Source: Prevotella lacticifex
Lineage (GTDB): Bacteria; Bacteroidota; Bacteroidia; Bacteroidales; Bacteroidaceae
Direction of reading: 5' to 3'
Length of the DNA stretch: 64,000 bases
Assembly (NCBI RefSeq): GCF_019973375.1
Contig: NZ_BPTV01000002.1
Location: 419,228 to 483,227 of the forward strand
The translations under genes were made by a program, and so were the position numbers. Each line of letters starts with the position of its first letter. Within the stretch, counting starts at the first letter, position 1. Below, piece after piece: positions 4,546 through 42,376 of this stretch. The notes beneath the pieces are model-generated. The model made no database searches, was not told the DNA's origin, and saw only the letters and a list, made by a program, of their open reading frames with translations.

Positions 4546-4917
4546 CGACGGCTTTTCTCTCTGTTTCAGGAAGGATTGCCATTGTCAGAGCCGATCTTCA
4601 AACTCTACAAACGGCATAAGGCACTCTATTTCTTGGTCCCATTTATGAGAGAGTTTGTATCCTTTTGCAGTATTCGGATAGGCTTAGTTTGGAACCGCCG
4701 CGACCAACTAACATAAAACGATGTAGTCGTGGACGGCCACAAGGGCCGCACCCTGCAAGTGGATCATTAACGTACGCCCGCTGTTCAAAATTCAAGCTGC
4801 AACGTTATGAACAATCTTTTAGGCTCATTGAATATTTTCCGTGGGACCAAGTTGAGAGGAAATATAAATCTTTATACTGTCATTATCGCTCTGGCATTTA
4901 CAAACGGAAAAGAGGAA
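4546..4917. other. Intergenic region with weak inverted repeat, no gene
   Basis: No convincing coding sequence. CTTGGTCCCA (4632-4641) recurs inverted as TGGGACCAAG (4842-4851), 200 bp apart, which may mark ends of a decayed small element. The stretch leads into the structured repeat that follows. Confidence 0.4.
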
Positions 4918-5265
4918 AGATAGTTCATAGCGTATAGAGAGTCTGCTATGCTGCTTGTGTTCTGCTGAGCGGTACAATATTTATGCGCCTTGGCGCAATT
5001 GATTTTATGCGCTTAGACGCAATTTTATGCAAGGCAATTTTCGTCATAGGTAGGCTTTAACCCCGTTAGGGGTGGGTGTGGAAGTGATGGGACAGACTGC
5101 GAGCTTGCTCGCAAAGGCTGCCCCATCACTCCCACACCATAGCTCCATCGGGAGCTAAAGTCTGCCTATGACTATTTTCCTTGAGTTTTGGACCTCGCTA
5201 ACCAATTAAAAATCCGTAACCAGAAAGATTACAAATATCGGCCCACGGGAAATATCCAGTGCGGC
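4918..5265 (+). repeat. Structured multi-hairpin repeat, copy A
   Basis: A repeat of about 350 bp shared with inverted copy C (20425-20665) and in its core with copy B (20688-20858). It begins with small hairpins in AT-rich spacers (GCGCcttgGCGC, GCGcttagaCGC, about 4985-5040). Then comes a closing helix of 16 pairs (5043-5058 with 5157-5172, two G-U) around hairpin 1 (5061-5072, CCCCgttaGGGG), long hairpin 2 (5075-5095 with 5118-5138, 19 of 21 paired, apex 5099-5112 GCGAGCTTGCTCGC) and hairpin 3 (5141-5156, AGCTCCatcgGGAGCT). It ends a few bases before the stop of the LysM gene. Function unknown: structured RNA, or a non-autonomous element recognised as hairpin DNA. Confidence 0.75.
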
Positions 5266-20424: not shown

Positions 20425-20665
20425 GTTAGGGTGGGGATAATCGGCGCATTGGATATTTCCCGTGGCGATATGTTCATAATTGGTTAGAGAGGTCCATAAC
20501 TCAAGGAAAATAGTCATAGGCAGGCTTAAGCTCCCTATAGAGTACCCCCTGACGGGGTTAAAGCCAGCCTATGACGAAAATTGCCTTGGCATAAAATTGT
20601 GCATAAGCGCATAAAATATTATGCCGCACAACAGAACACAAGCAGCATAGCAGACTTTCAAGACG
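20425..20665 (-). repeat. Structured multi-hairpin repeat, copy C (long hairpin deleted)
   Basis: Inverted partner of copy A: on the minus strand it runs from CATAGCGTcttGAAAGTCTG through ATGCCaagGCAATTTTCG, a 15-bp closing helix (20513-20527 with 20561-20575, 14 paired), hairpin 1 (CCCCgtcaGGGG) and half of hairpin 3, then the shared tail TATTTTCCTTGAGTT and CACGGGAAATATCCA. The long central hairpin is missing. It lies head-to-head with copy B. Confidence 0.72.
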
Positions 20666-20687
20666 CTATGGACTATCTTTCGGCCGC

Positions 20688-20858
20688 AGGATTTTATGCC
20701 CAAGGGGCAATTTTACGCGTTAGCGATTTTCGTCATGGGCAGGCTTGACACCAAAGGTGTGGGGCTAAAGCTATGGGGTAGGCGGCGAACTTGCTCGCAA
20801 GACTACCCCATAGCTTTAGACCCATTGCTCCTTGGGGAGCATAAGCATGACCATGATT
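20688..20858 (+). repeat. Structured multi-hairpin repeat, copy B
   Basis: Same architecture as copy A with different bases. After GCCCaagGGGC and CGCgttaGCG come the closing helix (20732-20746 with 20843-20857, 13 of 15 paired), hairpin 1 (20748-20760, ACACCaaaGGTGT), long hairpin 2 (20760-20781 with 20803-20824, 21 of 22 paired, apex 20785-20798 GCGAACTTGCTCGC) and hairpin 3 (20826-20841, TGCTCCttggGGAGCA). Both arms of hairpin 2 differ from copy A yet still pair. Confidence 0.75.
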
Positions 20859-20896
20859 TTCTTTGCTCTTTTCCGTTTGAAAATGCCAAAGCGATA

Positions 20897-21225: not shown

Positions 21226-21300
21226 GGTTCCGTAGCTCAGTTGGATTAGAGCAACGGCCTTCTAAGCCGTGGGTCAAGGGTTCGAACCCCTTCGGAATCA
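21226..21300 (+). tRNA. tRNA-Arg (anticodon TCT)
   Basis: Full cloverleaf of 75 nt: acceptor GGTTCCG with CGGAATC, D arm GCTCAGTTGGATTAGAGC, anticodon stem ACGGC/GCCGT with loop CTTCTAA (TCT, reads AGA), T arm with GGTTCGAACCCC. Discriminator A; the following bases are CCG, so CCA is added after transcription. Confidence 0.95.
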
Positions 21301-41253: not shown

Positions 41254-42376
41254 CAAAAGTATTCCAATAAAAAAAGTGACTTGCCCTCATTGTGGTTGTA
41301 CTGAAGTTATACGGTATGGTGTTATTCACCGCATGATACACAACCTTCCTATAGGCAGCAAGAGGACGTTCCTTTATCTTACAGTCCAGAGATACCAGTG
41401 TAAGGCGTGTGGAAAGGTTCATCAGTCAGACATACCTTTCACCCGCGGAAATGTCAGTTATACATACAGATTTCAGCGTTATGTATTGGACTTGCTAAGG
41501 CTTGGTGGCACCATTACAGACGTTGCGAAGCATCTTGGCGTTGGCTGGGATATGGTAAAGGACATACACAAGGATTATCTCAAAAAGAAATATTCCCATC
41601 CTGACATATCAAAAGTAACGAAGATTGGAATAGATGAGTTTGCCGTCAGGAAGGGTCATGTATATAAGACCATCGTCGTAGACCTTGATACAGGACGGAT
41701 AATACATGTGGGTGACGGCAAAGGAAGTGACTCTCTTACAGCGTTTTGGAAAAAGGTTAAGCGCAATAATATCAAGATAGAACTCGTTACCTCTGACATG
41801 TCTGCCGCCTACATTTCATCTGTGGCACAGAATGCTCCTCAGGCCAAGCATGTATATGACAAGTTCCATGTCGTAGAACTCGTCAACGACGCTGTTGACA
41901 AAGTTCGCCGCAGCGTATGGAATCAGGAAAATGACATAGAGAAGAGAAAGCTAATAAAGGGCACGAGATGGATGCTGCTGTCAAAGTCATTGGACAAGTT
42001 CGATGAGGAGTCAAGAAAACGTTTTGACAATATTCTGAATACGAACAAGCCTCTCTTTGAGGCATACTATCTGAAGGAGGACTTATGCCAAATATGGATG
42101 CAGAAAAGCAAGGCTGAAGGAGAAGAGCAACTTGAGTACTGGTGCGCCAGAGCAAGAGAAAGCAAACTGACGGCTATGATTAAAGTGGCTAATACGCTAC
42201 TGGCGAAAAGAACTGGAATACTCGCATGGTATGACTGCAAAATGACCAATGCGGTTCTTGAGGGGACAAACAACAAGGTGAAAGTGTTGAAGAGGAAAGC
42301 GTTTGGTTACAGAGATGACGAATACTTCAAATTACTATTACTTGGCATGAAAGACGAGACAGTCAAAACTGAATAG
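41254..42376 (+). pseudogene. ISL3 transposase, C-terminal piece
   Basis: Continues the frame from 39588: KSIPIKKVTCPHCGCTEVIRYG carries the N-terminal zinc finger (CPHC ... CKAC). The DDE domain follows (KIGIDEFAVRKGH, VTSDMSAAY, NAVLEGTNNKVKVLKRKAFGYRD). The joined protein would be 405 residues, normal for ISL3. The GTG at 41276 could start a 366-residue product without the first 39 residues, which is unlikely to be fully active, so the outer element is probably stranded unless the inner one leaves precisely. Confidence 0.88.

Follow-up and report, generated by a model that had tools for sequence, protein, structure and literature searches.

Branched hairpin repeats of Prevotella lacticifex belong to gene-less, non-autonomous derivatives of a dispersed element

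Hairpin modules and elements in the window

The window, that is, the whole 64,000-nucleotide stretch of the Prevotella lacticifex genome analysed here, carries three copies of a branched hairpin module. Module A (5043-5172, plus strand) consists of a closing helix, a short hairpin, a long hairpin with a CTTG apex and a further short hairpin, followed by TATTTTCC. Its predicted fold has an energy of -84.2 kcal/mol (z -10.4), and none of 200 shuffles folded as well. Module B (20732-20857, plus strand) has the same architecture, as the original prediction from the sequence had described it, with a fold of -70.7 kcal/mol (z -8.9; 0 of 200 shuffles as good), and in both modules the long hairpin ends in the apex CGA(G/A)CTTGCTCG. 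The strings of small hairpins that the same prediction placed upstream of the copies are present as well; the one preceding module A (GCGC-CTTG-GCGC and similar hairpins, then AATTTT) occupies 4980-5042 on the plus strand, between a spacer and the module. Copy C had been named as a partner of A and B, and is described more exactly here: it lies on the opposite strand (20513-20575, minus), and it is the other arm of the element in which B is the second arm. Module C retains a closing helix and short hairpins of the same kind as those of A and B, read on the other strand, and has lost the long hairpin by deletion. According to our analysis, the three copies are not independent RNA loci: all are branched-hairpin modules that belong to one dispersed element.

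Two such elements lie in the window. Element 1 (4822-5265, corresponding to positions 1503-1946 of locus L001) is a shortened, non-autonomous copy with a single module, A, and with both ends kept. The left terminal inverted repeat (4822-4844, plus strand) is the ISAon1-like GGCTCATTGAATATTTTCCGTGG, and the right one (5243-5265, minus strand) reads GCCGCACTGGATATTTCCCGTGG on the minus strand; the target duplication is gone, only 2 of 8 flanking bases matching. Element 2 (20443-20896) has both arms, C and B, has lost its gene and is truncated at the right end, its extent being set by comparison with L004, a nearly complete element copy of 583 bp. It begins with the left terminal inverted repeat GGCGCATTGGATATTTCCCGTGG (20443-20465, plus strand), and its inner part (20576-20731) consists of small hairpins flanking a spacer, which is where some relatives hold a GxxExxY gene or its remains. 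Across the copies the plan is an outer end, a flank, an inverted arm, small hairpins, a spacer, small hairpins, the other arm, a flank and an outer end, and both elements of the window are gene-less, non-autonomous derivatives. Another dispersed repeat, GGACGGCCAC(A/G)AGGGCCGCACCCTGCA, adjoins element 1 at 4731-4757 and also occurs in L066 and L268, and palindromes of the AAACGG(C/T)CCGTTT type stand several in a row near element copies in L002, L004, L032 and L147.

The two modules had been proposed to differ by changes that keep pairing, in a structure that is conserved. Starting from 28 candidates drawn from two genomes, we left six truncated or partial ones unaligned and dropped four of the 22 aligned (the A/B chimaeras L024, L008 and L027 and the deletion L016), which gave an alignment of 18 modules. 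In it, 26 of 52 pairs carried changes in both partners (shuffles, 16.1±2.0), two-sided changes occupied 103 cells (shuffles, 33.9±4.6), and 92.6% of cells paired; all five measures beat all 500 shuffles. When the structures were slid by 1-3 columns as a control, 3-9 two-sided pairs and at most 16 cells were obtained. Local pairing of the arms is maintained, and strong covariation relative to shuffles, on which the proposal depended, is present in the larger alignment. Variation is greatest midway along the long hairpin, while the apex CGAGCTTGCTCG and the feet of the stem hardly change. In the modules of L008 and L027 the 5' half is of B type and the 3' half of A type, and that of L024 is mixed near its foot; the first two suggest that the arms of one element recombined with each other or were joined by a deletion.

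The modules are repeated within the genome and sparsely distributed outside it. A blastn search with element 1 against its own genome (4.19 Mb) returned 59 alignments, some of which are the two strands of one palindromic place. The covariance search that had been put forward together with the original prediction, carried out here with model R1, found matches at E ≤ 0.001 in 8 of 200 genomes of the genus, the window's genome included (six strong, E ≤ 2.1e-19, and two weak), so that copies exist beyond this strain. The apex pattern was found in at least 80 stretches of named genomes and in one virus contig. Seventy-five of the named stretches come from ten assemblies labelled Prevotella or Hallella (Hallella mizrahii, RUG753, RUG541, RUG430, RUG318, RUG212, RUG759, hRUG908, SUG549 and ERR1855550_bin.24), and R1 matches 73 of these 75 among the matches listed. 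Eight of 81 stretches with the apex pattern have no R1 match, namely L162 and L173 (Lachnospiraceae), L169 and L225 (Nevskia), L204 (Deltaproteobacteria), the virus contig L228, and L197 and the 111-base L205 (Prevotella).

A GxxExxY gene between the arms

Inverted arms enclose 27 spacers, most of which (24) measure 138-268 bp; the remaining three, all in Hallella mizrahii, measure 604-618 bp. Two of the long spacers (L156 and L179) hold an intact open reading frame (ORF) of 149 amino acids between the two inverted modules, and in the third the same ORF is interrupted by one internal stop. The product matches TIGR04256 at 91.0 bits (cut-off 35; E 6.6e-26) and PF13366 (PDDEXK_3) at 90.2 bits (cut-off 22; E 1.5e-25), so that by profile similarity the gene is assigned to the GxxExxY family (PDDEXK_3, PD-(D/E)XK superfamily). 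The fullest copies, those of H. mizrahii, therefore read outer end, arm, GxxExxY gene, arm and outer end.

Remains of the gene are found at a fixed place beside the arms. A tblastn search (E ≤ 1e-3) with the protein over 80 named loci gave 19 matches in 17 loci, all of them 51-125 bp from an arm, and the 15 matches that reach the C terminus all lie 76-79 bp from it; the loci had been chosen for having an arm, and the result is a test of position only, 13.3% of their bases lying within 400 bp of an arm. In the window's own genome, L327 retains residues 1-46 of the GxxExxY gene between two modules. The enclosed gene, the fragments at fixed distance and this remnant together indicate that the arms belong to a GxxExxY element whose gene has been lost or has decayed in most of the copies seen. 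The earlier interpretation, a structured RNA or a non-autonomous mobile element, is supported in part; it had missed the unity of C and B as one element, the nature of the modules as inverted arms and the GxxExxY gene that these enclose in relatives.

Ends, target duplications and mobility

The elements carry one of two kinds of end. Among 28 end-to-end pairs with the first kind, from which IS copies and pairs mixing in the IS of L079 were set aside, 7 are bordered by perfect 8-bp duplications and 3 more by duplications matching at 7 of 8 positions (chance, 0.0004 per pair). The 16-base core of this end, GCACTGGATATTTTCC, occurs 28 times with at most 2 mismatches in the window's own genome and not once in the reversed control, and a few of the occurrences lie inside genes without an element. 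One of the 7 perfect duplications borders L275, which has the same ends and no module.

These ends resemble those of insertion sequences of the ISAon1 type. The own genome has three ISAon1 groups, two with ends starting GGCGCA and one with ends starting GGCCCA, all with TCCGTG further in; the element ends likewise start GGCGCA with TCCGTG further in, and the 8-bp duplications are shared. More closely, the element end GGCGCACTGGATATTTTCCGTGG resembles GGCGCAGGGGGATTTTTCCGTGG, the end of ISAon1 group d of the own genome, and the end GGCGCACTGGATA seen in L290. Of the 12 rows of the group with ends GGCGCAGGGGGATTTTTCCGTGG, 10 have a perfect 8-bp duplication, and in L079 of the own genome an ISAon1-type IS with these ends and an 8-bp duplication interrupts an element. 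The locus L290 (192-2022, genome G054) combines an element left end and an ISAon1-type IS, complete with both reading frames and both ends, into one unit, which was inserted into a TauE-family gene and has the perfect duplication GCCCTTTC on both sides. The first 13 bases of the IS ends, GGCGCACTGGATA, are common to the usual element end, and 12 of the 13 agree with the end of this particular copy. We regard this composite as the best evidence that an ISAon1-type transposase may accept the element's end. Among eight genomes searched, the exact IS of L290 was found only in G054, and in the window's genome 24 relatives were found at 46-61% identity.

A second kind of end, CCTGACTTCGTCAATGCGTCACCC paired with CCTGACTTCATCACATCTTTGGTT (CCTGACTTCRTCA), belongs to many module-bearing and some module-free elements (L124-L147 in the own genome; L148-L217), and two of the three gene-bearing copies have it at either end. 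A clear duplication, of 10 bp, was found in only 1 of 20 pairs with this kind of end, and in the loci read no transposase could be tied to it. Hybrids of the two kinds of end occur in L003 and L018. The window itself contains an ORF (41276-42376) of the DDE_Tnp_ISL3 family (profile match at 41624-42334, one of 43 matches in the genome), which belongs to an ISL3 group distinct from those with element-like ends.

The elements differ from ISL3/ISAon1 insertion sequences in that they contain no transposase, and the IS copies that were read have neither branched arms nor GxxExxY remains. In the window's genome and in relatives, arms without a gene sit in elements that have terminal repeats of the ISL3/ISAon1 type and 8-bp duplications, and where an element carries those ends it is an ISL3/ISAon1-like miniature element in its behaviour. 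The proposal of a non-autonomous mobile element is accordingly borne out by the dispersed copies, the terminal inverted repeats and the 8-bp duplications, while the suggestion attached to it, that the hairpins are recognised as single-stranded DNA, finds no support because ends and duplications are of the double-strand DDE (ISL3/ISAon1) type. Within Bacteroidales, BrickBuilt and other miniature elements of Porphyromonas gingivalis offer a parallel, being described in the relevant parts of PMC4596501 as multi-copy and intergenic with IS-like ends. According to the same parts of that source, they differ from the present elements in having ends like those of ISPg1 (IS5 family), a 23-nt tandem repeat in place of branched hairpins and duplications of irregular length.

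Action of the arms and GxxExxY genes in other genomes

In the explanation that we favour, with a probability of roughly 0.7 for the whole of it, the repeats are paired, inverted arms of a small insertion element, every one of them a branched hairpin module, and these arms would act in RNA. Miniature elements with ISL3/ISAon1-type ends would be moved in trans by an ISAon1-type transposase, as the likeness of the ends suggests, and the GxxExxY protein would have a putative role in helping the intact element to move or persist. The element would be transcribed as part of, or beside, host transcripts, and its arms may then form stable stems at which the transcript ends or a double-strand RNase cuts, which would limit the damage to the host. 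The model for the last steps is the intervening sequences (IVS) of 23S rRNA, which the portions of PMC4990558 concerned with them describe as a small ORF between stem-forming terminal inverted repeats, sporadic in occurrence, called selfish and cut at their terminal stems by RNase III. The elements share with them the plan of an ORF between terminal inverted arms, and ORFs for four-helix-bundle proteins occupy the same kduI-kduD junction as a GxxExxY gene (see below). In contrast to the IVS, the ORF encodes a GxxExxY protein and not an S23/four-helix-bundle protein, the four-helix-bundle ORFs at kduI-kduD belonging to other elements; each arm folds alone into a branched module; and the elements lie between ORFs, with 1 of 42 inside a short ORF and none seen in rRNA by a classing that considered ORF contexts only.

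The evidence for action in RNA is mixed. Changes were counted by parsimony over 105 places (101 distinct rows) in the best 150 of 211 covariance-search rows from 81 loci, in an alignment that was fitted to the structure and whose counts therefore lean towards it, related copies moreover not being independent. Changes to G-T exceeded changes to A-C overall (71 vs 46), in the closing helix (22 vs 11) and in the closing helix, short hairpins and apex taken together (41 vs 18), which is a hint, not proof, of tolerance at the RNA level; in the long hairpin the two are equal (30 vs 28), as expected for DNA and against a role in RNA. Just 3' of the module, T content is 0.67 on the module's own strand and 0.21 on the other (n = 103), so that, on the strand that leads outward from the element centre, a T-rich tail comes after each arm, as in an intrinsic terminator. 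The contexts of 42 classed elements (22 between tandem genes, 11 convergent, 8 divergent and 1 within a short ORF; the other 34 of 76, lying at contig edges, were left unclassed) show no preference for convergent genes, which led us to reject a preference for terminator sites and gives no indication of a simple terminator role. A terminator consensus scan of the L179 element returned a single terminator-like site, about the level of shuffles. Since the arms are inverted, a single transcript would read one of them in antisense, which again speaks against a role in RNA. By analogy with the rRNA IVS, we nevertheless infer, more weakly than mobility, that the arms may work in RNA.

The equal counts in the long hairpin would be natural if the elements were plain ISL3/ISAon1 miniatures and the arms functionless passenger palindromes, kept matched by template-switch correction during replication. 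The ISAon1-like ends with their 8-bp duplications agree with such an origin, as do the chimaeras with broken arms (L008, L024, L027) and the module-free L275 with the same ends. Mere passengers would not be expected, however, to recur in elements with other ends, to stand beside the ORF at a fixed 76-79 bp, to keep apex and stem feet nearly constant around a variable middle, or to have counterparts of the same architecture and different sequence around a GxxExxY gene in another genome (L321), and we consider this explanation unlikely, though it deserves to be taken seriously.

The strong covariation would also be accounted for if the modules were a trans-acting or cis-regulatory family of structured RNA that is repeated by chance. 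The original prediction knew of no named family that fitted with confidence, and only a tRNA (21226-21300) reached its Rfam gathering score in the whole window; microRNA families, which appeared at permissive scores, were taken as artefacts of the long hairpin. The permissive scan also gave Clostridiales-1 RNA (RF01699), with five modules in 4 of 16 loci scoring 33.6-38.4 bits, below the gathering score of 48, and on these scores the element does not belong to that family. The partial likeness lies in a long hairpin with a GCUUGC (CTTG) apex, a further hairpin after it and repetition within the genome; the order of the hairpins and the closing helix appear to differ: the alignment covers the long hairpin and one following hairpin and leaves the closing helix out of register. 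The terminal repeats and target duplications, the patchy presence (two of the eight genus genomes matching weakly) and a position relative to neighbouring genes that looks random all count against a family of this kind, which we deem improbable. As to Clostridiales-1 RNA, L173 and L162, which have no R1 match, overlap weak matches to it, and it has 11 matches in G462, a genome labelled Lachnospiraceae (L406-L417; 8 over the cut-off), and one below the cut-off in another genome so labelled. Several of the G462 copies have AATAAAC/GTTTATT, or a helix like it, at their borders, and this RNA may itself be a mobile repeat.

The many imperfect palindromes, and the CGTC that 77 of 104 modules have at their inner foot, a tetranucleotide that tags one foot of one REP class (PMC3733652, in the part dealing with that class), would fit single-stranded DNA hairpins recognised by a tyrosine (HUH, RAYT-like) transposase, as in REP or IS200/IS605, but this reading is highly improbable given the 8-bp duplications, the DDE-type terminal repeats, the placement of three of the CGTC letters inside the closing helix, the commonest outer feet being AATC and AGTC, and the description of CGTC REPs, in the same part of that source, as having stems of 8-9 bp, loops of 4-5 bases and no dedicated transposase found. 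Identity with the CGTC REPs, themselves short palindromes, is ruled out by stem length, the 15-pair helix here enclosing three hairpins within a larger element.

Homologues of the GxxExxY gene occur in 63 of 120 genomes of the genus (E ≤ 1e-8), and scores above the family cut-off were obtained in 73 of 148 sampled genomes of the phylum with completeness of at least 90%. The flanks (250 bp) of the best-scoring 30 loci of each search were compared for inverted repeats of at least 30 bits. In the genus such repeats border 17 of 30 loci; for comparison, they were found around 1 of 273 control ORFs and in 28 of 870 mismatched flank pairs. Two of the 30 loci, L316 and L327, hold decayed copies of the kind found in H. 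mizrahii. In the phylum, the control with neighbouring ORFs was a small sample (3 of 24, against 8 of 30 GxxExxY loci), and since, in addition, the gene row of L374 had wrong bounds, mismatched flanks were used over 29 rows, giving 8 of 29 loci against 18 of 812 mismatched pairs. Against a general claim, 13 of 30 loci in the genus and 21 of 29 in the phylum fall below 30 bits. The inverted repeats are sometimes tandem low-complexity units (GTTGTCC-type or AAAACAAGAAAA-type) and not hairpin modules, as seen around GxxExxY in L322, L323, L325 and L333.

At L321, both flanks of a GxxExxY gene fold as a closing helix with three hairpins of other sequence (z -6.5 and -7.3), and R1 scores these arms at 52.8 and 28.7 bits, their orientation being inverted, as expected. 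Similar arms at L318 (z -4.3 and -4.1) are direct and not inverted repeats. In the flank test both loci stay below 30 bits (25.6 for L321, 27.4 for L318). In 18 of 27 GxxExxY loci with two neighbours, the flanking genes share one direction, and in 16 of the 18 the GxxExxY gene is on the same strand as they are, according to crude ORF calls. At the kduI-kduD junction, readable in 19 of 30 loci, 14 of the 19 spacers measure 19-92 bp and five measure 517-678 bp; of these five, one contains a GxxExxY gene and four contain four-helix-bundle genes according to profile matches, and the inverted repeats flanking the five genes score 68.9, 50.0, 56.3, 29.2 and 68.9 bits. The four-helix-bundle genes lying between inverted repeats at this junction (TIGR02436) are those of L382, L389, L394 and L395.

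That intact relatives carry a gene of this little-known nuclease family between their arms suggests that many GxxExxY genes are part of an overlooked type of insertion with inverted repeats at its borders. In the open-licence full-text literature, outside which most subscription journals and preprints lie, GxxExxY genes were nowhere described as elements with such borders, and the name turned up in only two papers, with one passing mention in each. Tentatively, and with somewhat less than even confidence, we propose that GxxExxY genes across Bacteroidota may be the protein part of selfish insertions with inverted-repeat or branched arms, which would enter operon spacers as IVS enter rRNA and whose arms would act in RNA; the repeats of the window would then be relics without a gene, left by the most elaborate branch and taken up afterwards by ISAon1-type transposases.

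The elements described here explain one source of intergenic structure in some Prevotella genomes. If the wider proposal is true, it would join the ends of ISL3-type DNA transposition with structurally constrained arms resembling rRNA intervening sequences, and a large family of unknown proteins would gain a context and a testable role.
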